From positions 4,568,501-4,632,500 of the forward strand of contig NZ_RBXL01000001.1 of NCBI RefSeq assembly GCF_003634315.1: DNA of 64,000 nt, in the 5' to 3' direction. Origin of the DNA: Thiocapsa rosea (GTDB lineage Bacteria; Pseudomonadota; Gammaproteobacteria; Chromatiales; Chromatiaceae). The stretch's first letter is position 1. Each line of letters starts with the position of its first letter. The position numbers and the translations under genes were made by a program. Below the pieces are notes generated by a model. That model ran no database searches, was not told the origin of the DNA, and was given only the letters and a program-made list of their open reading frames with translations. Shown one piece after another: positions 38,197 through 62,988 of this stretch.

Positions 38197-39689
38197 GGCT
38201 CTCCCGGAATTCAGGGAAAGCGCTAAAATATTTAAAAACATGACGTTGTAGTCATTTTGACCGAACACGTTGGTTGAAAATATCGCTGGACGCACCCCGT
38301 CCAAGCCATTTTTAAGCGGTTGTTTTTCATTGATCAGCGCGCGAAAACCCGATAACCGCACAGATCGAGGTACACCCTCTGGTAGAGCCGGCGCAGGTTG
38401 CTCAAGCCATAGCACCGCCGTTTTAATACTTTGATCTTGTTGTTGAGACCTTCGACGAAACCGCTCGTGTGTCGTTCGGTAAAATAATTGGTGATCTCGT
38501 CCCAATGACGGCGCAACGTTTTCAGGAAGGATTGAAAACACGTCATCTCGGCGTTCTTGACCCGTCGCATCCAGCCACTGAGTTTGCGCTTGGCCTGACC
38601 TTTGGACAGGGGCATGTCGTAGACCTCGGTGAGGGCTTGGCTGAGGGCATGAGCTTGCGCGAGTTGCGGGGAATAGGCGAACAACCGGGCGCGGATCCGC
38701 CGTTCCTCGGCGCTCAAGTCGGATTCGCGCTTGCGCAGGATCCAATGGACGTTCTTGAGCCCGCCGTACTCGGTTTTCGACAGGTCGCGCTTGAGCCGGC
38801 GCAGTTCTGTCTTGCGCAACGTCTCCACGGCGTCGCGATACAAACGCGCGACATGGAAGCGATCGGCGCAGATGGCGACGTGCGTGCCGAAGACGGCCTT
38901 GGCCGCACCGATGAAGCCGCTGTACAGGTCGGTGCACACGACGCGAACGGTGCGCCGCAAGGATTTTGGGATCGTGCGCAAAAACGCCTCGATGGTCGCG
39001 CGCTTACGGTCCTTGAGCACGGCGAGGATGCTCAGGGTGTCCTCGACCCTGGCGCTGACGATCACCACGAAATTGCCGTGGCCTTTGGTCAAGGCGATCT
39101 CGTCGAGCCCGAGCACGGGCAGCGCCGTGAGCGTCGTCCAGTCGATCTGGCTCGGGACGCACCGATCGAGAATACCGTCGAGGTGCTCCGGGGTGACGGC
39201 CTCCTTGTGCGCGACGTCTTCCAGGGTGCTGTTGATCAGGGCGCGCATCAGGCTGTGTTCGAACGCACGGGTGAAGCCGCTGCGCGGGTCGTACCAGTCC
39301 ACCCGTTGGGTGGTGGTGGGATGATCCCGGCAATCGGGGCAGCGATACCGTTTGGGACGAATGAGAATTTCGGTGCGATGCTCGAAGATCGACAGATGGC
39401 GCAACCGCCGTTCTTCACCGAGTCCATGCGGCTCAGTGATGCGTCGGCCGCAGCTCCGGCACTGCGTGCCCTCCTCGGTGCTGTGCACATGAATTTCCAG
39501 CACAGCGGCGTCCGTGATCTCGACGCGGTCGATGGCGATCTGCGGCAGTCCGAGCAGGCGCAGGAGTTGGCTCTGGTCAATCATCGGTTTTCCATTGAGT
39601 TAAAAGCGTTCGAATGGAAGTTTACCAAGATTGGCTGCGTAGAACACTGATTTTACTAAACTTGGCGTTCCCTGAGATCCGGGAGAGCC
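38197..39689 (-). mobile_element. ISL3-family insertion sequence, copy 4 (1,493 bp)
   Basis: It has the same ends as the other copies and an exact 8-bp duplication CTATAGGC at 38189-38196 and 39690-39697. It inserted into an intergenic repeat-like sequence downstream of the ATPase/PLD operon. Confidence 0.95.
38334..39584 (-). CDS. ISL3-family transposase (copy 4)
   Basis: It is 416 residues, identical in protein sequence to copies 1 and 3, with intact zinc-finger and DDE motifs. Confidence 0.94.
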   Translation of the reverse strand: MIDQSQLLRLLGLPQIAIDRVEITDAAVLEIHVHSTEEGTQCRSCGRRITEPHGLGEERRLRHLSIFEHRTEILIRPKRYRCPDCRDHPTTTQRVDWYDPRSGFTRAFEHSLMRALINSTLEDVAHKEAVTPEHLDGILDRCVPSQIDWTTLTALPVLGLDEIALTKGHGNFVVIVSARVEDTLSILAVLKDRKRATIEAFLRTIPKSLRRTVRVVCTDLYSGFIGAAKAVFGTHVAICADRFHVARLYRDAVETLRKTELRRLKRDLSKTEYGGLKNVHWILRKRESDLSAEERRIRARLFAYSPQLAQAHALSQALTEVYDMPLSKGQAKRKLSGWMRRVKNAEMTCFQSFLKTLRRHWDEITNYFTERHTSGFVEGLNNKIKVLKRRCYGLSNLRRLYQRVYLDLCGYRVFAR

Positions 39690-47451: not shown

Positions 47452-49611
47452 CTAGGGGAACACTGGCGCTTCGTGCCCCCGAATGATGATCACCGGGGCA
47501 CGGCGAAGCACCGCGAGGCCCTTGGAAACGTCAAATCGCTCGGCCATCTCGCGCTCGCGCAACGCCTCCGGCAAGCATTCACCGAACTTCAGCTCGGCGA
47601 TGAATCCGTCATCGAGCGGCAGCTCAAGCTTGGCCGTCTCCGCCAAAATCGTCTCGGCGATCGCCTTCTTCAGCGATGCCGGATCGACCGCGCCGGTGAA
47701 GCTGACCGCGAGGTTGTCGGCGGCGACCTTGACGGCCTCTCCGGCCAGCGCGTCTGCCATCGCCGCGTTGAGGAGTCGGCCGGCGAAGGTCCACCAGAGG
47801 ATCCTGTCGTGCGCATAGACAACGAGGAACGTCTTGCCCGGCTCGACCCAGTCGAATTCCTCGCGTAACGCTGCCATCTTTTCCAGGGCGCGTCGGGAGA
47901 ATGCGACGCCATCCTCATGCGGGTTGTCCTCGCGCCCCAGCACACGGGCTACCGCCTGACAGAGTATGACATGCAGCGGCTGGCCGGCGCTCAGCCATTG
48001 GGAGCGTCCGTGCAGCTCGGTCGGCTCGACGTAGGCATTGCGTCTTGGCCAGTCGATGAACTTGGTTGCCCAAGAGCGCCCGCCGAGGGTCAGGACGGCT
48101 GGCCCCTCCTCTTTCAGGATGAAGGTCGACTGATGGACCTCTCCGATCTGCTGTCGGCCGTGAAAGACCTGGATCGACGGCGGGCTGACGAAGACCGAGA
48201 ACAGCTCCATGAAGTGCTTGGCCCCGAACTGGCGCTCGCCCGATCGGCCGATCCCGACCAGACCCTGATCGGAATGCAGGATCTCGGTCTCGCGCATAAA
48301 GTCGAAGATCTGTATCAGCTCTTTGGGCTCGACCCGCGCCAAACCGGGAAGCCGCCCCAGCCAGGCCGGCCAGTCGGCCCTGGTGATCCCGGATTCCTGC
48401 AGGGCCAACGCCATGATCTGCTGAGCGAAGATGTGCAACGGCAGCGGCGGCGGCTCGATCAGCTCGACAAAGCCTTCGCTCCAGAGCTGCAGCAGACCGA
48501 CGGCCGGCAGGAACGCCTCCTCCCTGGTGATCAGAAAGAGACAGTTCCGTGCCGTCCCGGCGCGTCGACCGGTTCGTCCGATGCGCTGCAGAAAGGACGA
48601 CACCGTGCCCGGCGCATCGATCTGAATGACCCGATCCAGATCACCCACGTCGATGCCCAGCTCCAGGGTACTGGTCGCGACGATCACGCAATCCTGCCCC
48701 TGGCTGAACGCAGTCTCCGCCGCGTGCCGCTCCTCGAGGCTGAGGCAACTGTGCGAGACGTAGGTGCTCACACCCAGCCCGCGCAGCTCGATCGCAAGCG
48801 CTTCGACCCTGGACCGGCTATCGCAGAAGACCAGTCGCTTCTCGCCTCGGTGCAGTCTGGAGATGATCAGCGCCGCGTTGCGCAGGTTGCCGACCCAATC
48901 GAGCGCGATCTCCGGCGCTGCGCCTGCGTCCGTCGGCGGATCGATGACGCTGCGAGGCTGCGCGAAACCCGCGGCCAGCCAGTCGCAGAGCTGTTCCGGG
49001 TTGCCGACCGTTGCCGAGAGTCCCAAGCGCTGCAGCTCCCGGCCAGCGATGTAGCCCAACCGTTCGAGCACATACATCAGATGCCATCCGCGGTCGTCGC
49101 CCGCGAAGGCGTGGACCTCATCGATGATGACGCAGCGCAGATTCGCGAACAGCCGCCGATGGTCGATGCGCTTGGAGACCAGCATCACCTCCAGTGACTC
49201 GGGGGTCGTCAGAAGGATGTCCGGCGGATCGGCGCCGAGCCTGGCCTTGCGCCCCGGGCCGACATCGCCGTGCCACAGCGCAACACGGCGCCCCAGCAGG
49301 CCGGCGTAGTACGCCAGCCGCGGCTCGAGGTTGTTCAGCGGCGCCTTGATGGGACAGATGTAGAGGACGCTCAGCCCGTCCCAGCGTTCGCTCAGCATGC
49401 GCGAGAGCACCGGAAAGGCCGCTGCTTCGGTCTTGCCGCCTGCGGTCGGCGCAAGCAGGATGGCATGCTCCCCGCGCAGGATCGGCGCGATGGTCGCCTC
49501 CTGCAGCGGACGCAGTGACCTCCAGCCAAGGCTGTTGACGATGTGGTGCTGTAGCGCCGGATGCAGACGATCGAAGGCGCTGCCCGTCGCGCTACCCGTT
49601 GCAGCCGTCAC
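47452..49611 (-). CDS. brxHI: BREX helicase BrxHI
   Basis: The protein is 719 residues. Walker A is LLAPTAGGKTEAAAF (about 53), the DExH box is VIIDEVHAFAGDD (about 163), and motif VI is QRIGRTGRRAGTARN. It is an Lhr-like superfamily 2 helicase with a C-terminal winged or accessory region. In BREX type 2 loci this helicase lies at the end of the operon, as here. Its start overlaps the brxD stop by four bases. Confidence 0.85.
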   Translation of the reverse strand: MTAATGSATGSAFDRLHPALQHHIVNSLGWRSLRPLQEATIAPILRGEHAILLAPTAGGKTEAAAFPVLSRMLSERWDGLSVLYICPIKAPLNNLEPRLAYYAGLLGRRVALWHGDVGPGRKARLGADPPDILLTTPESLEVMLVSKRIDHRRLFANLRCVIIDEVHAFAGDDRGWHLMYVLERLGYIAGRELQRLGLSATVGNPEQLCDWLAAGFAQPRSVIDPPTDAGAAPEIALDWVGNLRNAALIISRLHRGEKRLVFCDSRSRVEALAIELRGLGVSTYVSHSCLSLEERHAAETAFSQGQDCVIVATSTLELGIDVGDLDRVIQIDAPGTVSSFLQRIGRTGRRAGTARNCLFLITREEAFLPAVGLLQLWSEGFVELIEPPPLPLHIFAQQIMALALQESGITRADWPAWLGRLPGLARVEPKELIQIFDFMRETEILHSDQGLVGIGRSGERQFGAKHFMELFSVFVSPPSIQVFHGRQQIGEVHQSTFILKEEGPAVLTLGGRSWATKFIDWPRRNAYVEPTELHGRSQWLSAGQPLHVILCQAVARVLGREDNPHEDGVAFSRRALEKMAALREEFDWVEPGKTFLVVYAHDRILWWTFAGRLLNAAMADALAGEAVKVAADNLAVSFTGAVDPASLKKAIAETILAETAKLELPLDDGFIAELKFGECLPEALREREMAERFDVSKGLAVLRRAPVIIIRGHEAPVFP

Positions 49612-50948
49612 AGATCCAGCTCGATGTCGTCCACCCCTGTGGCGGATCGGGCGGCACGCTCGACGGCGCTCAGCTCCCGGTCGCCGACGGTCAGGGCATA
49701 GTGCTGCCGCGGGTCGAAATCGGCATGCTGATCCACCCGATCCATGACCTCGCCGACCAGCTTCTTCAGAAACAGCCGCGGGGCGATCCCGACCTTTCCG
49801 CCGAGCGCGCCCGTCACGGCCTCGGCGAGCGCGGCGACATAGGCTTCGTCGACGACCGCAGTCAGGCGTCTATGCGCCCTGCCCTCTACCCGATCGTCTG
49901 CACAACCCTCTGCATAGAGATCGCGCACCTTGCGGCCCACCTCGCACAAGGCTGCGACGTCGAATCCCTTGAGCCGGATCTGCACGGCGCGCGGATTGTC
50001 GAAACGGGCGTCGGTCGCGAAATCCACGGCGAGCCGCTGCGCCAGGGGCGGCAGGCGCTGCACACCCATCGGACCGTCGAAGAATGCCGTCGTCCCGGTG
50101 ATCACCAGATAGAGCCCCGGAAAACGTCCGCTGTCGATCTCGTCCATGAGCTGGCGCAGCGCATTCAGGCTCTTGTCGCGCACGTCCCCACGCATGCGCT
50201 GCAGTGTTTCGACCTCGTCCAGCACCAAGAGCAGCCCCGGATGGCCGGAGTCTTTCAGGATGGTCAGCACGCCCTGCAGGAAGCTCAGGGCGCCGAAATG
50301 GTCGATGTCCCCTTTGATGTTGGCGTAGCGCTTGATCGTCGCGGCGATGTTCGGCTGACCGGCCATCCAGGCCAGCAGCCCATCGGCGATGTCGTCTCGC
50401 CCTTCAAGCAGCGCGCGCCGATAGGCCCGCAGGGTCAGCGCAAAGGCCGGTGCCGAGCGCACCACCTCGCCGAGACGTTTTTCCATGAGCGCGTCCGTGG
50501 CATTCATCAAGGCGGCGACGTCGTCGGGATCCACCTCGCCCTGAGCGATCACGTCCTCCTCGAGCGCAAAGAACCAGGCATCGATGACATTACGGAAAGC
50601 CCCGGAGGGCGAATCCGCCGTGGTCAGACGCTCGATCAGACGTCGGTAGACCGTCTCCAGGCGGTGCAACGGCGTCTCGGTCTCGGAGATCTGCACCTCG
50701 GCGCAGGCGAAGCCCAGGCGATGGGCGCGCTCGCGCAGCCAGCGGGCGATGAAGGTCTTGCCGCTGCCGTACTCGCCGCGAATCGCCTTGAACTGCCCGC
50801 GCCCGCGGGCGACCTTCGTCAGCTCCTCGTCGAATGCGGCCTCGAAGGGCGCGAGCCCCACCGCAAGCGCGTCGAGCCCGTATTGCGGCACGGTGCCGCG
50901 CCGCAGCGCGTCGATGATGTCGTCTCGGCGTTGATGGCTGATGGTCAT
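49608..50948 (-). CDS. brxD: BREX ATP-binding protein BrxD
   Basis: The protein is 446 residues. It starts MTISHQRRDDIIDALRRG and has Walker A GEYGSGKTFIARWL (about 57), Walker B LLLVLDEVETLQRM (about 236) and the RDKSLNALRQLMDEI sensor region (DUF2791-type). BrxD is a core ATPase of BREX type 2 and related loci. It overlaps the pglZ stop by four bases (ATGA). Confidence 0.88.
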   Translation of the reverse strand: MTISHQRRDDIIDALRRGTVPQYGLDALAVGLAPFEAAFDEELTKVARGRGQFKAIRGEYGSGKTFIARWLRERAHRLGFACAEVQISETETPLHRLETVYRRLIERLTTADSPSGAFRNVIDAWFFALEEDVIAQGEVDPDDVAALMNATDALMEKRLGEVVRSAPAFALTLRAYRRALLEGRDDIADGLLAWMAGQPNIAATIKRYANIKGDIDHFGALSFLQGVLTILKDSGHPGLLLVLDEVETLQRMRGDVRDKSLNALRQLMDEIDSGRFPGLYLVITGTTAFFDGPMGVQRLPPLAQRLAVDFATDARFDNPRAVQIRLKGFDVAALCEVGRKVRDLYAEGCADDRVEGRAHRRLTAVVDEAYVAALAEAVTGALGGKVGIAPRLFLKKLVGEVMDRVDQHADFDPRQHYALTVGDRELSAVERAARSATGVDDIELDL

Positions 50949-53716
50949 AGCTCAAACTGGGTCTTCAAAGACGCCAGATCGAGCCGGATCGTCTTGGATA
51001 CCCGGTCGATCGCCAGGACCGGATAGCCATCGACATTCAGCAGCTTCTGCACGCCCGCCAGGAGTCCGTAGAGGCGGATCTCGGGGAGACCCAGGCCCTG
51101 CGCCACGGCGGCCGCCATCTGCTGACCGCCCGCCCGAGACAGCAGATCCAAGAGCTGCCGTAGCTGCGCCTCGCTCACCATCACCCGAGCGCTGCGTGCC
51201 TTCATCTGCGCGTAAACCGGCGAGACCATCAGAGCTGCGATCCAATCGCCCTCCCCCGCCCGCACGGGATCCGGCGCGGGTTCTGATTCGGGACTCGGCG
51301 TCGGCAGCTCGGCGAAGAGGTCAAGCGTGTGCGCGTCCTGCTTCGATGATTTCGATGGCTTCGACGGCTTCGACGGCCCGGCCGATGACGTCGGCACGGC
51401 ATCACCCGCGGATGTGGTCATCGGCTCCGCAACAGGCTCGGCAACAGGCTCGATCACCCACCAGTCGGGCTCCTGTCGTGCGACTTCGCGCCAACCCTCG
51501 ATGGGGCCGGTCTCGCCGGCATTGCGGTAAACGCCGAACGGAATCAGTACCTCTTGGAGCGAGCCGCCACCGTGATAGCCCATCTTTTTCGCCGTGTACC
51601 GAATCCGCTCCGACCAGGGCAGGATGACCTGGTTGCCGGGAAGCACGACGCGCTCGCCCGAGACGCGCACCTCGCCGACCCCGACCGGCTCGCTCAATGG
51701 CTTGAAGCGCTCCGCCTCGGCCGCCGTCTGCACCAGCGTCATGTCGTGATCCAGCACATGACCATGGTCGCTCGTGAGGATCACCAGCCTGCGCGACTCC
51801 CGGGCGGCCTCCAGGATCCGGCGCAGCACGCCGATCGACGCCACCGACCAGCGCACCGAGACCTGGGCACCGCTGCTGAGTTGGTCGTCGACCGCGTTGA
51901 TCACCGCACCGACCACCTTGTGCGCCTGGCCCGCGATGACCTCCCGCACCCCTTCAGCCAAGGCACCGCTGCCCGGCTGCAGGAGATCGCCCTTGTGAAA
52001 CAACCGGGGGGGAAACTTCGTCGACGAGAGCGTCTTCAAGCCGGGATGCGCGGCAAAGGCCTTTTTCTCGTCGGCACCGGTGCCCTCGCCCAGCGTGCCG
52101 GACAACAAGGCATAGCGGCTGATCCGGGTGATCGTCGGCAAGGCGGCGAGCAGACAACAGGGGCCGGTGCTGTCCGCCGGTTGAAGCTCCACCCAGCCGT
52201 CATGCAGCAGATCGCCTGCAAGCTCGCGGTAGACCGCGTGACTCATCCCATCGAGCACCAGGACCAGCACCGGCTGCTGCTTCGCCAGCGGAGCGATAAG
52301 GACATCCAAGGCCCGCTCTACGGGCAGAACCGACCCATTGACCTGATCTCCACGCGCAATGGCCGGCAGATGGTGCGAAAAGCGCTCGTTCAGACGCTCG
52401 CGCCGCGCGGACACCTGACCGATCAGTTGCCTGTAGACGCGGTTCAGGGCCTCGTGCGCGTCGCCCGACCAGAGGCGGCTGCGCGCCCAGTCGAGATAGC
52501 CGCCACTCCCAACATAGTCCCCGACCTCCTCCGCCAGGCTCCCCCGCTCCACCTCCTCCTTTCTCAGCCAACGGCAGGCGCGGACCGTCAGCTCCGCCGT
52601 GCCGAGCTGCTCCGTGCGGACCTTCGCCAGTTGATGACGTCGCAGATCCGCCAGGGCGACGAGCACGGGCTCGATCGGTTTGCCCGCAAGCGCCGCGTCC
52701 AGCGTCTGCGCGAACCGGTCGAGCCGCAGTCCGAACCCGTCCGGCAGCAGGTCCGACGCGACCGCGAGTGGGCGCATGTCGAGACTCGCAAGGAGCTGCT
52801 GGGCCTGCGTCAGCGGCGCATCGAGCGCGCGATAGGGGCGCTCGGCCAGAAACCGTTCAAGATAGCCGACGGTTGCCCGCCCGTAGTCCTGCAGCGTCGT
52901 ATCCTCGATCCGCGCGCCGCCGACGACACGCTCGCGCAGGCGGCCCCTCGCCTGGAAGAGCGCCTGGTCCGGCGACAACCCATCGCGATACAGCACCGAG
53001 CAGACCAGACCGATCGCGACCATGTCGCCCGCGTGCCCTTCTCGCCAGAGGCTCAGGACCAGCTCGGTCGAGGCGCCAAGTCGGAGCGCGAGCCAGTCGC
53101 CAAGGTGCGCGACCATGGGCTCGGGGAGCGCCGAGACCGCCGCGTCGACCTGCGATCCGCGCGACCAATCCAGGAGCGCGTCCAGGTCGAGCGCCTCGCC
53201 CGCGAAATCGAGCCGCGCCAAGGCCAGGGCGCGCCAGGCTTGATCGACATCCAGCACCTCGCCGAACTGAATCCGCCCGCGATAGCGGTCATAGGCATCG
53301 ACCAGTGCCTCCGCAATCCAGCGATAGGGTTTTCCGGTCAGGCGCGGATCGATCCGGCGCACGCGCAACAGTTGCTCCAGTGTCCGCCAAGGGCTGATGC
53401 GCTTCGGCTCGCAGCCCCAGAGCCGTGCCAGGACATCCTTGGACAGGCGCGTCTCATCGAAGGGCGAGAGCATCACCAGCCGCTCGGCACCCGGCGCGTG
53501 CGTCACGAGCAGCTCGCGTATCGCCAGCTCCGAGGGGCAATAGACGACCCGCAGCGTCGTGTCCGAGAGCTGCCGCCGCAACTCGCGCGGCTCGATGGGC
53601 TCGGGCCAGACCAGCGCGATCCGATCGGCTCCGGCATCCTTGCTCAGGATCGCCTGCACTTGGGTGAGCACGGCGCTCGGGAGCACGGCGTGGTCGGAGA
53701 CGGGATCCTCAGCCAT
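50945..53716 (-). CDS. pglZ: BREX-2 PglZ (alkaline-phosphatase-superfamily protein)
   Basis: The protein is 923 residues. The PglZ domain shows the first metal-binding Asp in VLVLVLDGMSHAVYREL (about 488) and the later metal site in ILTSDHGHVLDHDM (about 648). A low-complexity linker (EPVAEPVAEP; SKPSKPSKSSKQ, about 770-800) separates it from a small C-terminal helical domain. PglZ is essential to BREX; its exact chemistry is not settled. It overlaps pglY by 8 bp. Confidence 0.9.
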   Translation of the reverse strand: MAEDPVSDHAVLPSAVLTQVQAILSKDAGADRIALVWPEPIEPRELRRQLSDTTLRVVYCPSELAIRELLVTHAPGAERLVMLSPFDETRLSKDVLARLWGCEPKRISPWRTLEQLLRVRRIDPRLTGKPYRWIAEALVDAYDRYRGRIQFGEVLDVDQAWRALALARLDFAGEALDLDALLDWSRGSQVDAAVSALPEPMVAHLGDWLALRLGASTELVLSLWREGHAGDMVAIGLVCSVLYRDGLSPDQALFQARGRLRERVVGGARIEDTTLQDYGRATVGYLERFLAERPYRALDAPLTQAQQLLASLDMRPLAVASDLLPDGFGLRLDRFAQTLDAALAGKPIEPVLVALADLRRHQLAKVRTEQLGTAELTVRACRWLRKEEVERGSLAEEVGDYVGSGGYLDWARSRLWSGDAHEALNRVYRQLIGQVSARRERLNERFSHHLPAIARGDQVNGSVLPVERALDVLIAPLAKQQPVLVLVLDGMSHAVYRELAGDLLHDGWVELQPADSTGPCCLLAALPTITRISRYALLSGTLGEGTGADEKKAFAAHPGLKTLSSTKFPPRLFHKGDLLQPGSGALAEGVREVIAGQAHKVVGAVINAVDDQLSSGAQVSVRWSVASIGVLRRILEAARESRRLVILTSDHGHVLDHDMTLVQTAAEAERFKPLSEPVGVGEVRVSGERVVLPGNQVILPWSERIRYTAKKMGYHGGGSLQEVLIPFGVYRNAGETGPIEGWREVARQEPDWWVIEPVAEPVAEPMTTSAGDAVPTSSAGPSKPSKPSKSSKQDAHTLDLFAELPTPSPESEPAPDPVRAGEGDWIAALMVSPVYAQMKARSARVMVSEAQLRQLLDLLSRAGGQQMAAAVAQGLGLPEIRLYGLLAGVQKLLNVDGYPVLAIDRVSKTIRLDLASLKTQFEL

Positions 53717-56700
53717 CCGTCTCCCCCAAGATCTGATAACTGATATCCAGTATCACCCCGTCCCTCAGCAGCGGCTCGATCTCCTTCAGAACGCGGCGGG
53801 CCTCGTCGACCTCCAAGCCTTGGCGATCCTCTTTCTTCAGCACCTTCTTGCCCTTGAGTCCCCGGGGCGGCTCCGGTGGCGGCACGACCGGGGGAACGAT
53901 CGGCGGAACGACCGGCGGTCGCTGGATCAGCCGCGTCGCATCCGCCTGTGCCTGCTTGAGCGCATCGGCCAGGGAGGTGACCAGCTCGTCCGCCGCCAGC
54001 GCGTCGGCCACGGCGCGCTTGATCCGAACGCCCTCGCCGCCGTCCCAGACCGCCTTCAACAGGTCCCAGTTATTGTCCGCGATGGCATTGCTCACGCGCG
54101 TCGCGGCGATGATGCTGCGGGCCAGCGCCGGTAGGCTGGTGACGGGTGCGATGCCCGCCAAGGCGGTGACCAACGCAGGCCCTTCGCGCGCTTGCAGATC
54201 GTCCAGCACCGCAACGCCAAGCTTGGCATTGGCGAGTCGATTTCCACTCGCCGAAAGACCCAAGGCGTCAAGCTGTTCGGTCAGTGCAGACAGCAGCTCG
54301 CGACAGGGTTCCAGATAGGTCTTGACCGCGTCGCGCACCTCTTTTTGCAGCGCGTTCTGGTTGTTCGCCGTCCTCAGAGGATTGATCGTCAGTCCGAACA
54401 AGGCACCCGCGTGATCCAGTGCCTGCTTCCACTGCGCGGGCTCGGCCAGATCCTGCTTGATCAGCACCAGGTCGTCGCGGATGTCCTTGAGCGAGACATC
54501 CTCGTAAGGACCGCCGTGGAAGGTGAAGGCGTACTGGCCGTGCTCGGCAAAGATCAGGATGAGCAGATTTTGCACGGCGGTCGGCAAGCCCTTGGGCTGC
54601 GGCAGGTCCATCGCCGTGCGCAGTGCCGCCACGGTCACCTCCCCGCCCGTCTTGGCCAGCTCGCGGCCGAGGTGCTGGGGCCAGTCCTCCTTGAAGATGA
54701 AGTGACGCTCGTGCATCTCGCCGAGCTTCAGCGGCTGGGCGATCTGGCGCATCAACGGACGCAGCGGGCTGTCCACATCGATACGGCCGTGGGGTGCGTG
54801 GATCGCGCGGCGCAGCTCCAGGAAGATCTTGCCCAGATCGCTCGGCCGGACCTCGCCGTCGCCCTGAGTCTCGAAAAAGGCCGGGTGGTCCGGGTACTGA
54901 AACGCCAGCGCCTGCCCGAGCAGTTGCTCGAAGGCCCGCGCCATGGTGGTGCCCTGCGGCGGCCTCGGCGTGAACCCGGGCTGCAGCGACATGAGCTGAG
55001 ACTCGAGCAGATCGGTGTTGTCGAGCGATCCGGGCAAGGACGCGGCGACGCCGTAGGCGCCCATCAGGATGTCTTTGATCTGCTGGCGCAGCTGGCTGCG
55101 TTGATTGTCCAGCAGGGTTCGAGCACTCGCCCGATCCTGCGGGCTGAGATGGCGGCTGTAGCGGTTGAAGCTGTCCTCGCTCTTGAGGATGTCTTCGAGC
55201 ACGACCAGCTTGCCGAGATTCTGCCGGGCGCCGTGACTCAGAAAATAGGGCAGCCAGCAGAGGGTTCGCGCCTGTCCGCCCGCGCCCTCGAACTCCCTGA
55301 CCCTGGCCTGATCGTCGGTCGGCGAATAGGTCCCGGTGTCGAAGGGGAAGTCGATGATGACCTTCCACTGGTCGTCGCGCGCCTCGAAATAGCGCTCGTC
55401 GGTCATCTCGCGGATGTTCTGGAACAGCACCTCCACGCGCCGACGGGTGCCGCGCCACACCCATTCGTGCTCGACGAAGAGCTGATTGTCGTCGCGGATG
55501 CCGAAGGCATCGAAGACCATCTCCTTGACCAGGCGCCGACGGTTGCCGTCGTTGTCGTTGATGCGCGCCTGCTCGAGGATGCTTTCGGTATCCACGCCCG
55601 AGAGCTGGATGCCGATGATCGGGCTGGTGTCTTCCGAGATCTTGATCTCGCCCACCTGCCCCGCCCATTTGCGGCACTTCTGCATCACCGTGGGGGCCTC
55701 TTGGCCGGGGATAGGCGAGCGGATGGTGCCGTGATTCAGGGCCGCGAGCTTGGTCGCCGTGAGCTGTTTGAAGCTCTCGACCTCGGGAACCAGCGCGGCC
55801 AGCACCAGCGTCTTGAGCAGACGCAGGTCGTTGTTGAAGGCTTGCCGCCGCAGATCGCCCGGGGGCAGCTCCAGGAGTGCCTGAACGCCGCTCTGATGCT
55901 CCATCTCCAGCAGCGGGATCAGCTTGCGCTCGAACAACAGCTTGGCGTTGTCGAAATGCTGACGCATTTGCTCGGAGAAGGGCTCGGCCTCGGAGGCGAT
56001 GACGTCGTAGAGGTCACCCACCGGGATAACGCTTCCCAGCGCCAGGGTCTCGCGCTGCTCCACCAGCAGCATCAGCATGACCTTGAGCGCCGTGCGCTCG
56101 CGCTGCAGCGCCGAGGACAGCGCCACCAGCGCCTGAACCAGGGCCGGGCTGAAGGGATAGAGTGCGCGGAACATCTCGCGATCGCCCTGGCTGGTGAGCA
56201 GCAGGTTGAAGGCGTCTTCGCGCATCTTTTCGGTCTGGGCGAAGGCCGCCTCGATCTGGCCCCGGGCCGCCTCGTCGACGGGCGCAAGCAGACGCCGCTG
56301 AGCGATCACCGGCAGGTTCCGGTCCTCCAGCGTGATGGTGTGGAAGCGCCCCTCCCAGTATTTCAGCGAGTCGCTCAGGATCTCCTGCTCCACCCCGCTG
56401 TACTGATCGCCGACGAACTCGCGCAGGTCGCGCTGACGGGCGATGAAGCTGATCACCGGCAGCTCGCGCGGGATGCCGGTCTCGACCAGCTTGACGACCT
56501 TCTGGATCTCGCTGCTGATGAAGTTGCGGTCGGACAGACGGCTCGCGAGCCAGAGGATCAGCTCGTCGAGAAAGAGGATGACGGCGTCGTAGCCGAGCGC
56601 CTTGGCGTGCCGGGTCATCACGCGCAGCCCCTCGTCGAACTCCAGATAGCCGCCGCTTTGGGTGTTGGCGAGGTCTGCGAATGAGGTAAAGAGGCTCCCG

Positions 56701-57407
56701 ACCAGGTCGCTGACCAGCCGGTCGCGGCCGTCCTCGCTCGGTTGGCCCCCCGGCTGTCCCCCCGGCTGACCGGAGATCACGGCATCGAAGCTCACGGCAT
56801 CCCAGCCGGTTGCGACATCCCCCCAACCGTCGTTGCTCCCGCCCCTTCCCGCGGCGTTGAGCGCGCCGAAGAACCGCTCGTCCCCCAGGTGCCCGCGCAT
56901 CGCTCGGGCGTCGTCGAAGAGCCGTTCGCTCATGTAGAAGCCGGGCACCGGAGCGCCCGGATGGAGCTTGCGGATGTGGCGCGCATAGCCGCCGAGCACG
57001 CCGGCCTCGATGCTCGCCGCGCCGATCATGTGATAGGGCACCAGCAGGATGTTGCGGCTCTGCATCCAGTCGCTGTGCTTGGCGACGGCCGCCCCCAGCT
57101 CCGGGATGGCGCGCGCCTGCACGTTGCCCTGCAACAGCAGGTGCAGCACCGCCATGAAATGCGATTTACCCGTGCCGAAGCTGCCGTGCAGATAGGCGCC
57201 CTTGTTGCGGTTCTGCTGGCTGTTGACCGTGCTCTTGACGAAACTCAGTGCGTCTTCGAAGCAGCGCGCGAGCTGCGGCGTGACAACATAGTCCCGGAGC
57301 GTCTGCTCCACGGCGTCGGCCTCCAGGCCGCTCGCCAGATTGAGCACGAAATCCCCGCGCTGGACGCGCTCGGGGATGTGGATGAGGTCTTTGATCAAGA
57401 CAGACAT
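53709..57407 (-). CDS. pglY: BREX-2 ATPase PglY
   Basis: The protein is 1,232 residues from ATG 57407 (MSVLIKDLIHIPERVQRGDF); an open frame continues to 57455 but this start fits the family. Walker A is LHGSFGTGKSHFMAVL (about 70). AVILFLDELILWLASRL (about 280) is Walker B. Short simple repeats occur (GQPGGQPGGQP about 225; PPVVPPIVPPVVPP near the C-terminus). It is the large AAA ATPase of type 2 BREX. The gene follows the Uma2 gene by 133 bp. Confidence 0.88.
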   Translation of the reverse strand: MSVLIKDLIHIPERVQRGDFVLNLASGLEADAVEQTLRDYVVTPQLARCFEDALSFVKSTVNSQQNRNKGAYLHGSFGTGKSHFMAVLHLLLQGNVQARAIPELGAAVAKHSDWMQSRNILLVPYHMIGAASIEAGVLGGYARHIRKLHPGAPVPGFYMSERLFDDARAMRGHLGDERFFGALNAAGRGGSNDGWGDVATGWDAVSFDAVISGQPGGQPGGQPSEDGRDRLVSDLVGSLFTSFADLANTQSGGYLEFDEGLRVMTRHAKALGYDAVILFLDELILWLASRLSDRNFISSEIQKVVKLVETGIPRELPVISFIARQRDLREFVGDQYSGVEQEILSDSLKYWEGRFHTITLEDRNLPVIAQRRLLAPVDEAARGQIEAAFAQTEKMREDAFNLLLTSQGDREMFRALYPFSPALVQALVALSSALQRERTALKVMLMLLVEQRETLALGSVIPVGDLYDVIASEAEPFSEQMRQHFDNAKLLFERKLIPLLEMEHQSGVQALLELPPGDLRRQAFNNDLRLLKTLVLAALVPEVESFKQLTATKLAALNHGTIRSPIPGQEAPTVMQKCRKWAGQVGEIKISEDTSPIIGIQLSGVDTESILEQARINDNDGNRRRLVKEMVFDAFGIRDDNQLFVEHEWVWRGTRRRVEVLFQNIREMTDERYFEARDDQWKVIIDFPFDTGTYSPTDDQARVREFEGAGGQARTLCWLPYFLSHGARQNLGKLVVLEDILKSEDSFNRYSRHLSPQDRASARTLLDNQRSQLRQQIKDILMGAYGVAASLPGSLDNTDLLESQLMSLQPGFTPRPPQGTTMARAFEQLLGQALAFQYPDHPAFFETQGDGEVRPSDLGKIFLELRRAIHAPHGRIDVDSPLRPLMRQIAQPLKLGEMHERHFIFKEDWPQHLGRELAKTGGEVTVAALRTAMDLPQPKGLPTAVQNLLILIFAEHGQYAFTFHGGPYEDVSLKDIRDDLVLIKQDLAEPAQWKQALDHAGALFGLTINPLRTANNQNALQKEVRDAVKTYLEPCRELLSALTEQLDALGLSASGNRLANAKLGVAVLDDLQAREGPALVTALAGIAPVTSLPALARSIIAATRVSNAIADNNWDLLKAVWDGGEGVRIKRAVADALAADELVTSLADALKQAQADATRLIQRPPVVPPIVPPVVPPPEPPRGLKGKKVLKKEDRQGLEVDEARRVLKEIEPLLRDGVILDISYQILGETDG

Positions 57408-57540
57408 ATGATTTATCGGCGTCCTTGGTCGATCAACGGGGTCCGCGTCCAGCACGGGCGTCGGCGAGCATCCGAAATCGCATAGCGCGTGAGCCCAAGA
57501 AGCACTCGCCGAATTTGATTACGACCGCTTGAGTTTGTGG

Positions 57541-58143
57541 TTATGCCTGCGTTCCGCCCTCCTGTCTGGATCCAAACACCACCCGATCATAGAGTTCGCG
57601 CACCGACAGTCGGCAGTCCAGCGCCTCCAGCACAATCTCTGCTTGCGGGTCCGCATAGGCGTCGAGCAGCCAGCGGCCGTCCGGCTGGCGGGTGAAGACA
57701 TCCACCGCGACCTGGTCCTGCGCGATCAGCAGATAGTGGCGCAAGCTCGGCAACCGACGGTAGAGCGCGAACTTGCCGCCGCGGTCATAGGCCTCGGTCG
57801 AGGGCGAGAGCACTTCGGCGATCAGCACCGGATTGGTCAGCACATCGCGCCGCTCATCATGGAAGACCGGGGCGTCACAGATCACGCTGACATCCGGATA
57901 GGCACAGACATCGGCGGTCTCGATGCGGATCCGCATGTCGCTGGTGAGGACTGTACAGGGGCCACCATCCAGGTGATTGCCAAGCCGTCTGGTCACATTG
58001 GCCGCGATCAGACTGTGCTCATAGCTCCCGCCGGTCATGGCGAAGACCTGACCGGCAACGTATTCGTGCTTCACATCGATCGATTCACGCTCGACCGCCA
58101 GATAGTCCTCGAAACGATACTCGGGTGTGAATTGTGTCTGCAT
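57541..58143 (-). CDS. Uma2-family (DUF820) putative endonuclease
   Basis: From ATG 58143 (MQTQFTPEYRFEDYL) the protein is 200 residues, typical for Uma2. Motifs are DVKHEYVAGQVFAMTGGS (about 25), VCAYPDVSVICD, LIAEVLSPSTEAYDRGGKF and LYRRLPSLRHYLLI. This is the PD-(D/E)XK fold, with D in YPDV and E in AEVLS as likely metal ligands. Uma2 genes are widespread singletons of unknown role. Here it sits inside the BREX operon between pglX and pglY in the same direction, which is not the standard order, so it is probably a later insertion. Confidence 0.8.
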   Translation of the reverse strand: MQTQFTPEYRFEDYLAVERESIDVKHEYVAGQVFAMTGGSYEHSLIAANVTRRLGNHLDGGPCTVLTSDMRIRIETADVCAYPDVSVICDAPVFHDERRDVLTNPVLIAEVLSPSTEAYDRGGKFALYRRLPSLRHYLLIAQDQVAVDVFTRQPDGRWLLDAYADPQAEIVLEALDCRLSVRELYDRVVFGSRQEGGTQA

Positions 58144-58196
58144 GGTCTCGCTCCTCCGATAGCTCCTGCTGTACACGCTGCGCTGCTGATCGTTGC

Positions 58197-58277
58197 CGTA
58201 GGGTGGACAAGCGCAGCGCAGTCCACCAGCGCCGGCGCGGGGTTCGGTTGACTTCGCTCTCGCTCGTCCACCCTACG
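58197..58277. repeat. Palindromic REP-like repeat between pglX and the Uma2 gene
   Basis: CGTAGGGTGGACAAGCG at 58197 pairs with CTCGTCCACCCTACG ending at 58277, enclosing a second GTCCACC/GGTGGAC pairing. This is a typical dispersed extragenic palindrome. It may end pglX transcription. Confidence 0.6.
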
Positions 58278-58295
58278 GCTGGGACTTTGCCCATC

Positions 58296-61200
58296 CTACG
58301 CGGACTCACCCCGACTTCTGCGACCCCGTGCAGTCGCCGCCGGCTCCCACGCCTGCAGCTCGTCGCGTGACAGCTCCAACCGGCGCAGCTCCTCGAGCAG
58401 GAAGCCCTCGTAATAGTCGCCCAAACGCTCGCCGAATTCGGGATCGAGGGCATTGTGCCATTGCTTGAGCCAGGGGATGAGCTCGTCGAGCGCGACCAGC
58501 ATGGGCAGGAGGCGTTCGGCGCCCCAGCCGTCCTGCTCCTTGCGCTCGAGATACCAGGTGGCGATGGCCCCGGCGCGCTGCAGATGATCCAGCCCGGCCC
58601 AGCCGATGACCGGGGTGGCGTCGCCGGCGCGCTCGCAGCCGGGTAGGCTGAAGAAGCGCTCCTTGGGAACGTCGAGCTTGCCGCGCAGGCCCCAGTAGCT
58701 CGGCTTGCGAAAATCCGTGGAGGCGTATTTGGGCGGCAGCTGGATGTCGCCGATCTGCTCGGCCTTGAGCGCCTTGGCCTGCTCGGCGGTCAGGTGGTGC
58801 GGGTCGGCCGGATCGAGTGCGGTGCGGGCGTCGATGGCGTCCTCGGCGCGCTGCTTGTCCCAGGTCTCCCGCCAGGCGCGGTGCTTGGGCATGGCTTTCG
58901 GCTTGTAGCGCGCGGCGGCCATCTGCGGCACCTGATCGCCCTCGACCAGCTCGCCGACCAGGGTGCGGGCATCGAAGGTGTCGGAGCCGGTGTAAAGCGC
59001 GGCGACCTGCTGGAAGGACTCGGCGTGCCGGGCGCGCTCGGCGAGCTGGGCGACGGTCAGCAGCTCGGGGGACTGGCAGAGCCCTTCCAGATGATCGAGC
59101 AGCCAGTCGCGCAGTGCGCGGCGCCGGCGGCTCTCCGGTGGCTCGCGATTCCAGCGGCGCTTGTACTCGGGCTGCTCGATCAGACGGATCCAGGGGTTGT
59201 CGGCCATCGCCTGAAGCCGGCGTTCGGTCAGCTCGCGGTAGTCTGCCGGCCAGTGGTCGGGGATCTCGGTGGCGGGGGTGCTGTTGTGGCGCGCGAACCA
59301 GGTGGTCTGGGTCTCGCCCGCCAAAAGGCGGCGGGCGAGGAGGATCTCGAAGGGACGCTCGCCGAGACGCATCTCGGGCGGGGTGGTGCCGTAGCAGAGG
59401 TCGTCGTCGGTCAGGCCGTAGAGACGGTAGTTGAGCCAGTCGAGCTCTTCCTGGAGGGCGATCATTTGGCGCCGGAGCGACTCGGACTGGTGCTCGGCTT
59501 CGGCGAGTGCGGATTTGGGATCTCTCACGGAGACACGGAGACACGGAGGGGATTCGGGCGGTTCTCCATGATCTCCGTGACTCCGTGAGAGGATTTCGGA
59601 GGGGTCGAGCGCGGCGAGCTGGTCAAGCTCGGGATCTCTCACGGAGACACGGAGACACGGAGGGGATTCGGGCGGTTCTCCGTGATCTCCGTGACTCCGT
59701 GAGAGGATTTCGGAGGGGTCGAGCGCGGCGAGCTGGTCAAGCTCGGGATCTCTCACGGAGACACGGAGACACGGAGGGGATTCGGGCGGTTCTCCGTGAT
59801 CTCCGTGACTCCGTGAGAGGATTTCGGAGGGGTCGAGTGCGGCGAGCTGGTCAAGCTCGGGATCTCTCACGGAGACACGGAGACACGGAGGGGATTCGGG
59901 CGGTTCTCCGTGATCTCCGTGACTCCGTGAGAGGATTTCGGACGGGTCGAGTGCGGCGAGCTGGTCAAGCTCGGGATCTCTCACGGAGACACGGAGACGC
60001 GGAGGGGATTCAGGCGGTTCTCCGTGATCTCCGTGACTCCGTGAGAGGATTTCGGACGGGTCGAGTGCGGCGAGCTGGTCAAGCTCGGGATCTCTCACGG
60101 AGACACGGAGACACGGAGGGGATTCGGGCGGTTCTCCGTGATCTCCGTGACTCCGTGAGAGGATTTCGGACGGGTCGAGTGCGGCGAGCTGGTCAAGCTC
60201 GGGATCTCTCACGGAGACACGGAGACACGGAGGGGATGCCGGCGGTTCTCCGTGATCTCCGTGACTCCGTGAGAGGATTTCGGACGGGTCGAGCGCGGTG
60301 AGATCGCGGGCGAGTTGGTCGAGGTGGTGGGCGAGGTCGCGTGCCTTGTCTTCGGGATCCGGGGCGATGGGGAATTGCTTCAGGCCGGTTCCTGCGATCT
60401 GGTAGAAATTCTCAAACGCGACTGTCGTTTGCCGAGCACCTTTGGTATCGACAGTGCTTCCTTTGCAGTGAAACACCTGTTTGATCCAGAAACATGCGGT
60501 CGAACTGTTGAGCAGGCCCAGTAGTGCCAGATGATCATCCACAGTGGTCCCGGCGGGTAGCTTGATGACCGGTGCGGTCTGCTTGAAGACTTTGCCGCCA
60601 CTGTCGAGGACGAAATGATTATGGGTGGCGACTTCGGCGAAGGTGATTGAGAGGGGCACTTTGAAGCGCTTCTCGAAGAACATCGAATACTCGAACCAAT
60701 GAAGACCACGCTCCAACTGGCTCAAGCCATAAGCAACCCTCTGCGACAACTGAGTCTTGAGCGGCCACAAAAAGTGGCTCACCGCATCATCAGCTTGCGC
60801 GCGAGAACAGTCCGCGGCATACGGCCAAATCCCACCAACAGGATTGTCGATCGACCAGTCGCGCACCCACTCACCCTCGACCAGCGGTCGGATCTGAGCA
60901 TCCTGAATCCCGATACGTCGGCACACCTTCTCGCCGATCAAGTAAGCTTGGTCTTCGCGCGTCACTGCTCCGAAACCGATTTCACTGGCGTAGTCACCGA
61001 GTGACCTGGTCACGAAGCTCCCGCTTCGTGACCCAGGAGACGAAGCTCCAGCTTCGCGAGACCGGTCGCCTCGTGAAGCGGAGCTTCTTCGCGTGGGTGA
61101 CGCAGCTGGAGCTGCGTTACCAGATGCGTGGGTGGCGTCCTCGGGGGCTTGGGTGGCTGGGGCGGGGCCAGCGGTCCGGGCGGCGGACTCGATCAGCTCT

Positions 61201-62906
61201 TTCAGCTCGGACGCACCGCCTCCTCCGACACTCCAGGGATGTCTTGCATACAGCCCGCGCTCCTGATCCACCACGCTGATAAAGGCGTTCTCGCTTCCCG
61301 GCCGCTCCAGCAGATCGACGATCGACCGCCACACCTTGCCCTGCGCCGCATCCTCGGGCGTGCTCGGCTCTCCGCGAATCCCGAGCACGGCGCGCAGCCG
61401 ATCACCTCGGGGCGTCTGGTTGCGCCCGAAGAGGATCACGGTCGGCGTGCCGTGACCGGGGATGTAGGCCCCGGAGGTATCGATCACATGGGTGAGATCC
61501 TTGCGCGGCAAATACGCCTCGATCAGCTTTTTGCCGAACTCGCGTTTCATGAAGGAGTTGGCGGTAATCATGCCGACGAATCCGGCCGGGCGGTTGTCCC
61601 CCTGTGGAACCGGGCCAGGCAGGGCCAGATCGAAGAAGCGTTCGGTGAAGGGCACGCCGAGCGAATATTGGCGATGACAGGTCGGGTACTTATCCCGATA
61701 CGCCTGATTCAGCGCCTTGTCCTTGACGGTGATATAGGGCGGATTGCCGACCACGACCGGGTAGCGTTGGCCGAGGATGCGTTCGAGCTTGGCCTTGTCT
61801 TCGACCTCGAAGACGTGGGTCAGGCTGTCATCGAGCATGTCGCCCTGGATGCCCTGCCCTTGCGATTCGTGTCGCCACCCGTGCAGGAGCGAGTCGCCGA
61901 CGGCGAGGTTGAAATGGAAGTCGGGCGCGTCTTTGAGCCGGTCGCTGCCCGCCGCCGCCATGGCGGCGATCAGCAGGCGGAAGCGGGCGATGGCGATGGC
62001 ATAGGGGTTGATGTCGACGCCGTGGATGGCGTCGAGCGCGCGCTGGACCAGGGCGCGGGCGTTGGTGGCGGGCTCGCGCTGCTGCCAGTCGTCGAACAGA
62101 CGCTGGAAGGCGCTCAGCAGGAAGTGACCCGAGCCGCAGGTGGGGTCGATCAGCTTGAGCCCCGGCAGACCGAAGGCGGCCTTGGCCGGCTCCAGGGTGT
62201 GATCGAGGATGAAGCGCTCGACGAACTCGGGGGTCTGGAGCAAGGCATAGCGCTTGCGCACGCTCTCGGAAAGATCTTGGTAGAGATCGCCGAGGAAGCG
62301 GGTGTCCAGGCCCCCGTCGGGGCGGGCGTCGGTGAAGTCGTGGATGATCTCGCCGGTTGCGGGGTCGAGCCGCTGGAAGAAGTCGATCAGGGCCTTCGCA
62401 CCGTCGGCCGAGAGCGGGAGCTGCCAGAGCGGGTTGTGGGCGCGGTCGAGCAGCTCGGCCATCGCGGGCAGGGTCGCCAACTCCTCGAAGACGGAGAGCA
62501 GATAGTCGCGCTCGGCATGGGTGGGATGTTCCGCGAAATAGACGCTCTGCCGGTCCTTTGCCTGTTGCAGGGCGCCCTGCCCCGTTCTCCTGCCCGCGCC
62601 ATCGGCCGAGCCATCCCCCGAGCTGTCCGCCGGCCCCGAGATCAGCGGCGCCTCCAGCAACCGGTTGTCCTCCAGAAAGCGGATGAAGACGCCGGTCAGC
62701 ACCCACGCCGCGGCGGCCTGGGTGATCTGCGCCTCGCGCCAGGCGACAAAATGCTCCGCGGTGCGGTTCGCCTCCCGCGCCTTGGCGTACTCGGCCTCGA
62801 GGTGCGCCTCCAGCTCCGGTCGGGTGCGGGTGTAGGCGAGGATGTCCTGCTCCAGCCGGGGCAGCAGGGATTGGAGGTCGGCGAGGAGCCGTTGGGGTTG
62901 GATCAT
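58296..62906 (-). CDS. pglX: BREX-2 adenine-specific DNA methyltransferase PglX, repeat-expanded
   Basis: The protein is 1,536 residues, about 300 longer than usual PglX. The helical N-terminus has VLTGVFIRFLEDNRLL. The AdoMet motif is LIDPTCGSGHFLLSAF (about 250) and the N6-adenine catalytic motif is VVGNPPYITVKDK (about 383). A palindrome-derived insert (SPTRRSSASRGDRSREAGASS) lies at about 597-633. Residues about 865-1130 are seven copies of a 38-residue unit (DPSEILSRSHGDHGEPP...), encoded by 114-bp DNA repeats. The C-terminal region continues normally (SLRRQMIALQEELDWLNYRLYG). PglX marks host DNA, letting BREX tell self from phage. Whether the expanded protein is active is unknown. Confidence 0.9.
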   Translation of the reverse strand: MIQPQRLLADLQSLLPRLEQDILAYTRTRPELEAHLEAEYAKAREANRTAEHFVAWREAQITQAAAAWVLTGVFIRFLEDNRLLEAPLISGPADSSGDGSADGAGRRTGQGALQQAKDRQSVYFAEHPTHAERDYLLSVFEELATLPAMAELLDRAHNPLWQLPLSADGAKALIDFFQRLDPATGEIIHDFTDARPDGGLDTRFLGDLYQDLSESVRKRYALLQTPEFVERFILDHTLEPAKAAFGLPGLKLIDPTCGSGHFLLSAFQRLFDDWQQREPATNARALVQRALDAIHGVDINPYAIAIARFRLLIAAMAAAGSDRLKDAPDFHFNLAVGDSLLHGWRHESQGQGIQGDMLDDSLTHVFEVEDKAKLERILGQRYPVVVGNPPYITVKDKALNQAYRDKYPTCHRQYSLGVPFTERFFDLALPGPVPQGDNRPAGFVGMITANSFMKREFGKKLIEAYLPRKDLTHVIDTSGAYIPGHGTPTVILFGRNQTPRGDRLRAVLGIRGEPSTPEDAAQGKVWRSIVDLLERPGSENAFISVVDQERGLYARHPWSVGGGGASELKELIESAARTAGPAPATQAPEDATHASGNAAPAASPTRRSSASRGDRSREAGASSPGSRSGSFVTRSLGDYASEIGFGAVTREDQAYLIGEKVCRRIGIQDAQIRPLVEGEWVRDWSIDNPVGGIWPYAADCSRAQADDAVSHFLWPLKTQLSQRVAYGLSQLERGLHWFEYSMFFEKRFKVPLSITFAEVATHNHFVLDSGGKVFKQTAPVIKLPAGTTVDDHLALLGLLNSSTACFWIKQVFHCKGSTVDTKGARQTTVAFENFYQIAGTGLKQFPIAPDPEDKARDLAHHLDQLARDLTALDPSEILSRSHGDHGEPPASPPCLRVSVRDPELDQLAALDPSEILSRSHGDHGEPPESPPCLRVSVRDPELDQLAALDPSEILSRSHGDHGEPPESPPRLRVSVRDPELDQLAALDPSEILSRSHGDHGEPPESPPCLRVSVRDPELDQLAALDPSEILSRSHGDHGEPPESPPCLRVSVRDPELDQLAALDPSEILSRSHGDHGEPPESPPCLRVSVRDPELDQLAALDPSEILSRSHGDHGEPPESPPCLRVSVRDPKSALAEAEHQSESLRRQMIALQEELDWLNYRLYGLTDDDLCYGTTPPEMRLGERPFEILLARRLLAGETQTTWFARHNSTPATEIPDHWPADYRELTERRLQAMADNPWIRLIEQPEYKRRWNREPPESRRRRALRDWLLDHLEGLCQSPELLTVAQLAERARHAESFQQVAALYTGSDTFDARTLVGELVEGDQVPQMAAARYKPKAMPKHRAWRETWDKQRAEDAIDARTALDPADPHHLTAEQAKALKAEQIGDIQLPPKYASTDFRKPSYWGLRGKLDVPKERFFSLPGCERAGDATPVIGWAGLDHLQRAGAIATWYLERKEQDGWGAERLLPMLVALDELIPWLKQWHNALDPEFGERLGDYYEGFLLEELRRLELSRDELQAWEPAATARGRRSRGESA
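59517..60314 (-). repeat. Seven tandem 114-bp repeats inside pglX
   Basis: Units begin at 59517, 59631, 59745, 59859, 59973, 60087 and 60201, exactly 114 bp apart, with few substitutions. Each unit holds an inverted repeat of CTCTCACGGAGACACGGAGA with TCTCCGTGACTCCGTGAGAG (one mismatch). As 114 is divisible by three, gain or loss of units keeps the frame. The CACGGAGACACGGAG core is of the kind usually seen between genes. Confidence 0.95.
61008..61119 (-). repeat. Cluster of short palindromes inside pglX
   Basis: Four small hairpins follow one another: CACGAAGC...GCTTCGTG, ACGAAGCTCCAGCTTCG, GAAGCGGAGCTTC and ACGCAGCTGGAGCTGCGT. They read in frame as a Ser/Arg/Gly-rich linker in PglX. The base pattern is that of intergenic repeats. 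Confidence 0.75.

Positions 62907-62955: not shown

Positions 62956-62988
<33 letters not shown>

Follow-up and report, generated by a model that had tools for sequence, protein, structure and literature searches.

The window, by which we mean the whole stretch of 64,000 nucleotides of Thiocapsa rosea DNA that was analysed, carries on its minus strand a run of BREX genes with pglX at its head. The genes are the following:

58296-62906, minus strand: pglX, BREX adenine methyltransferase of 1,536 codons (open reading frame, PADLOC, Pfam)
53709-57455, minus strand: brxC/pglY (PADLOC E=0)
50945-53716, minus strand: pglZ (PADLOC E=4.4e-257)
49608-50948, minus strand: brxD (PADLOC E=1e-204)
47452-49611, minus strand: brxHI helicase (PADLOC E=1.7e-284)
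L060:1421-5674, minus strand: pglW, just outside the window, behind small toxin-antitoxin-like genes (identified by eye alone)

The order after pglX is brxC/pglY, pglZ, brxD and brxHI and, with pglW, all components of a type 2 BREX (Pgl) system lie adjacent to one another: the system is complete. An earlier note on this DNA had named the gene of interest as the methyltransferase PglX, an assignment borne out by a PADLOC match with E=0 and by the full BREX neighbourhood. The open reading frame is intact over 1,536 amino acids, matches the model over its full length and includes a target-recognition domain. Pfam places Eco57I at residues 294-478 and DUF7008 at 1148-1530, and both the SAM motif DPTCGSGHFLL and the catalytic NPPY are intact in a methyltransferase region of the Eco57I/MmeI type. 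Structure comparisons match 8c45 (Z 16.2) and CamA/M.BseCI (Z 18).

Two smaller features flank the gene. Between pglX and brxC, on the same strand, lies an open reading frame of 211 amino acids (57541-58176), separated from pglX by a palindrome of the GTAGGGTGGACAAGCG type at 58195-58279. On the other side, 50-82 bp upstream of the start codon, the hexanucleotide TCGTTG is repeated in 5.5 copies (62956-62988). This repeat is absent from two same-genus relatives and could alter pglX expression if its length varies.

Inside pglX, Tandem Repeats Finder reports the one strong array of the window, at 59517-60302, with a period of 114, 6.9 copies, 98% matches, 0% indels and a score of 1488. The array spans 786 bp or about 262 codons; the earlier note had located it correctly from 59517 onwards, but its end lies near 60302 instead of 60314, and it falls short of the 270 residues given there. 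One palindrome of 70 bp starts every 114 bp, and in six of the seven cases a full spacer of 44 bp follows, while the seventh continues into unique sequence.

59517-60302, minus strand: in-frame tandem array of 6.9 x 114 bp, residues about 878-1128 of the protein
60206-60275, minus strand: palindrome 1, the first in coding order
60092-60161, minus strand: palindrome 2
59978-60047, minus strand: palindrome 3
59864-59933, minus strand: palindrome 4
59750-59819, minus strand: palindrome 5
59636-59705, minus strand: palindrome 6
59522-59591, minus strand: palindrome 7, the last, without a full spacer behind it

All seven palindromes start in frame 0 of the open reading frame 58296-62906(-), and the pglX frame is open across the array. 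Each of the other two sense frames contains seven stops, so that a random insertion in this orientation would be tolerated in about one case in three. The unit encodes 38 residues (114 = 3 x 38); DPELDQLAALDPSEILSR is an example of a predicted array peptide. Together, the repeat search, the frame and the intact reading frame confirm the claim of seven in-frame 114-bp palindromic repeats in PglX, and the proposed hairpin-forming capacity of each unit is supported by RNA folding, which gives -49.6 kcal/mol for one palindrome and about -50 for each. The arm motif has 14 matches in the window, compared with 0.15 expected by chance. Of the seven substitutions that we place among the units, five are synonymous, compared with an expected 29% (P about 0.03, from tiny numbers and with gene conversion as a possible source). 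This gives a weak hint that the array peptide may be translated and constrained. Could the array instead be a product of the assembly, with a different true copy number or with units made or collapsed by the assembler? Near-identical units over 786 bp are difficult for short reads, but the genome comes in two contigs, which suggests long reads, the units carry distinct internal variants, and the frame is kept throughout. We give this reading very little credence.

The repeat unit is a composite. It joins a 70-bp palindrome (CTCTCACGGAG...CTCCGTGAGAG) to 44 bp that derive from pglX, whose source lies just upstream of the array:

60276-60323, minus strand: native pglX codons (LDQLARDLTALDPSEI), source of the 44-bp spacer

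In the spacer, LDQLARDLTALDPSEI has become LDQLAALDPSEI by losing 9 bp and acquiring a few substitutions. Because these 44 bp are pglX-derived, a single palindrome appears to have been captured first, and the native codons to have been multiplied along with it. Elsewhere in the genome the palindrome itself is present about 16 times; its arms are conserved and its loops vary. Other Thiocapsa genomes hold between zero and about a dozen copies. When Pfam was run on the large open frames that span dispersed copies, domains were found only away from the palindrome and none of the copies lay inside a recognised domain, which fits a location at intergenic sites. The earlier idea that an intergenic-type repeat was captured and amplified thus holds for the 70-bp palindrome, a dispersed element in this and other Thiocapsa genomes, but 44 of the 114 bp come from pglX itself.

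How the palindrome moves has been approached through its neighbours. A linked RAYT (Y1) gene is ruled out as the mobiliser: the genome has nine Y1 transposase genes, and none of them adjoins a copy, though a RAYT may act on the palindrome from a distance. The sole PDDEXK_3 (GxxExxY) gene of the genome (L071:2139-2528; C1 about 2232650) is found within a dense cluster of CTCTCACGGAG palindromes and may be linked to their mobility. As the mobiliser it was rejected, with strong flanking hairpins at only a few of 30 family loci, and it remains a lead; a literature search on GxxExxY with palindromes found no description. A target-site duplication is not established: ATC stands on both sides in pglX, but the other copies share no constant flank.

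The array is absent in close relatives. It is lacking from two same-genus pglX orthologues with 84-94% nucleotide identity and from the pglX of a Lamprocystis MAG (87% protein identity), where the loop is compact and both flanks match: the empty site reads ALDPAAVLSR-TPENPK-TALAEAEHQ, the window gene ALDPSEI-[array]-KSALAEAEHQ. The element is therefore dispersed, in frame and absent from orthologues, as an in-frame captured palindromic element with Rickettsia-like behaviour should be. The closest pglX orthologue (L056, G009 C1 5459788-5462481) has several frameshifts in its N-terminal half and four TGA codons in the match; it is either a pseudogene or affected by sequencing errors.

The position of the array in the protein was modelled with AlphaFold2 on residues 641-1536 and 56 homologues. 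The target-recognition domain and the helix are confident, and fragment residues 244-485, which hold the array, almost all have a pLDDT <50. Right behind the array the chain resumes as a helix:

59421-59519, minus strand: helix 2 of the hairpin, around QMIALQEELDW (fragment residues 490-522 in the AlphaFold2 model, 33 residues, pLDDT about 96)

In a VIA-align comparison CamA and M.BseCI span the gap, with model residues 1-525 falling onto a contiguous stretch of about 240 residues at Z 18 and an rmsd of 2.8. The model and this alignment across the gap together place the array at the predicted tip of a helical hairpin just behind the target-recognition domain and ahead of the C-terminal DUF7008 part. 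The earlier note had recognised it as a linker before the C-terminal part, but had put the catalytic core in front of it, where the target-recognition domain stands instead. The array is predicted to be a disordered spacer rich in proline, serine and glycine.

Is this loop special to the window gene? We measured its length as the distance from the motif LLGLLNSS to IALQEELDW in 72 PglX genes; a phylum-wide sample yielded few additional ones. Of the 72, the loop is compact in 63 (285-339 nt) and longer in nine, and all nine enlarged loops contain repeats, either palindromic or tandem, which belong to about eight unrelated families:

Window gene: CTCTCACGGAG x7
Thiocapsa G009: GATGCGGTGAG palindrome
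Thiocapsa G009, second copy (L058): GCCGACTGAAGTCGGC repeats and a RAYT gene
Thiocystis violacea: CCCCCCTTTGATAAAGGGGGG
Methylococcaceae: GGGCGAATGAATTCGCCC x3
Betaproteobacterium: ATTCCCGCGAAGGCGGGAAT and about ten GGGAATGACGG units
Accumulibacter: ATTCCCGCGCATGCGGGAAT and an antitoxin-like gene
Lamprocystis purpurea: CCCTCTCCC type and a nucleotidyltransferase
Thiodictyon: CAAGGCGCCAAGGCGCC type and VapBC-like genes

The RAYT and HEPN genes in the loop were confirmed by Pfam; the nucleotidyltransferase, VapBC-like and antitoxin-like genes were named by eye. A further gene beyond the nine (L194) also carries CCCCCCTTTGATAAAGGGGGG, an insert of the CCCCCCTTTGA type. Taken locus by locus, strong hairpins cluster in the loop, with P = 2e-7 when the comparison is with the remainder of pglX plus the downstream genes and P = 5e-6 when it stays within pglX; both values are approximate, as they assume a loop of nominally 130 bp and independent loci. 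The C-terminal part of pglX has no such hairpin in 82.8 kb. Other inserts of at least 20 residues comprise two more loops, palindromic too, one C-terminal insertion common to a lineage and one 20-residue insert in L113. At one of these two loops the window gene itself has a second, different insert:

61010-61124, minus strand: in-frame palindromic insert of the GAAGCTNNAGCTTC type, following the methyltransferase core and preceding the target-recognition domain

This type is duplicated in Thiocapsa imhoffii.

Some of the loop inserts are in frame; others bring along a gene cassette, and pglX is then broken into two reading frames. The second pglX of the Thiocapsa relative (L058:2615-4880), for example, is split at the loop by a RAYT-like gene with its own flanking palindromes, accompanied by HEPN and nucleotidyltransferase-like genes. 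In other lineages, too, the PglX loop has repeatedly captured unrelated elements, and so many unrelated inserts and split genes argue that it needs no particular sequence or length. A literature search on in-frame palindromes in Chromatiaceae and on split pglX found no description. Split genes with restart codons at the loop (L058, L130, L132, L135/L202, L153/L203, L204), and the RAYT, HEPN, nucleotidyltransferase or VapBC-like genes in their gaps, would also be expected if the loop were a natural break-point. PglX-N and PglX-C would then work as two polypeptides, the gap would take up palindromes and toxin-antitoxin or nucleotidyltransferase cassettes like an intergenic region, and in-frame arrays would be re-fused forms. 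We think this quite improbable: compact fused pglX is the rule across distant phyla, so the fused form is most likely ancestral, and the window gene and its closest empty-site relatives are fused.

A functional role for the array has to be weighed against known repeats in restriction and modification proteins. In type I HsdS subunits of the EcoR124I type, in-frame helical repeats of four residues in the central spacer set the half-site spacing between two recognition domains. The pglX array resembles them in that an in-frame repeat stands beside a target-recognition domain, within a spacer of helices. The structure paper on Salmonella PglX likened the helices behind the recognition domain to the spacer helices of type I specificity subunits (PMC11341690). 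In line with the tuning proposed in the earlier note, array length might change how the target-recognition and C-terminal domains are arranged or how flexibly they are joined, or the seven mRNA hairpins might affect folding or expression, and copy variants would differ in methylation or defence. The array does lie directly behind the target-recognition domain, its reading frame is intact with synonymous changes over-represented, and tandem arrays arose in the loop in at least two lineages (the window and L144). PglX, however, has one target-recognition domain, so no half-site spacing can be set by the array, which is also predicted to be disordered, and the site is occupied by unrelated sequences of very different length, even by cassettes that split the protein. 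We therefore regard tuning as unlikely, and tolerance of insertions as a simpler reading than tuning or switching.

An on/off switch can be treated separately. In Streptomyces coelicolor pglX phase-varies through a G tract that shifts the frame on and off (PMC4365076), as the earlier note had rightly stated when it spoke of phase variation by other means. Both cases concern a repeat within pglX of a Pgl/BREX system. The unit of 114 bp, a multiple of three, keeps the frame upon copy change, unlike the units of phase-variable contingency loci, and an on/off frameshift switch is thereby ruled out.

We consider it probable that a palindrome was captured in frame in a permissive loop and grew in tandem by slippage, with little effect on the enzyme. 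A dispersed 70-bp mobile element would have inserted once, in frame, at the tip of the helical hairpin in pglX, and it would then have multiplied in tandem to seven copies along with about 44 bp of adjacent native codons, probably via replication slippage aided by the hairpins. PglX would tolerate the array because the loop is surface-exposed and permissive, with the flanking helices still packing, and the effect on methylation is probably small. Transposition as the entry, slippage as the growth and near-neutrality for function are steps that we infer. Against this reading stand the synonymous excess, which pure neutrality does not predict, the absence of all nine Y1 transposase genes from the vicinity of the copies and the lack of an established target-site duplication.

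Rickettsia palindromic elements (RPE), which have counterparts in Wolbachia, appear to be the closest precedent for the pglX array. They are dispersed, about 100-150 bp long and in frame in coding genes whose proteins tolerate them (PMC10969869). The likeness is one of behaviour, with no sequence relation claimed, and two things differ here: the tandem multiplication and one protein loop struck repeatedly by unrelated families. PARCELs (palindromic amphipathic repeat coding elements) are likewise tandem repeats in coding sequence that vary in number and show dyad symmetry in their DNA, but have amphipathic units of 25 residues in reading frames without assigned function, many of them membrane-targeted (PMC2996958), whereas the pglX unit has 38 residues, is predicted to be disordered and lies within a DNA methyltransferase. 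REP/REPIN elements with RAYT are also dispersed hairpins, and a RAYT gene and palindromes occupy the loop of the second Thiocapsa pglX (L058), but no RAYT, the linkage that marks this class, lies near any palindrome copy in the genome of the window.

An in-frame captured palindromic element is thus of an already known kind; what is new is the PglX loop as a repeated capture site. The array is an unambiguous example, from beyond Rickettsia, of how mobile palindromes turn into protein sequence, in a loop where gene cassettes and elements of about eight unrelated families have settled. How far a BREX methyltransferase tolerates insertion and splitting becomes directly testable, and the loop is a candidate tolerant site for engineering PglX. 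Its inserts explain odd length and split annotations of pglX and, if length did affect activity, they would represent a new way of adjusting phage defence.

Elsewhere in the window, three open reading frames of equal length (416 amino acids; 32420-33670, 33918-35168 and 38334-39584) each have matching opposite-strand frames of 393 and 197 amino acids, which suggests that one insertion sequence is present three times. At 26733-27983 there is a fourth, similar set in the opposite orientation.
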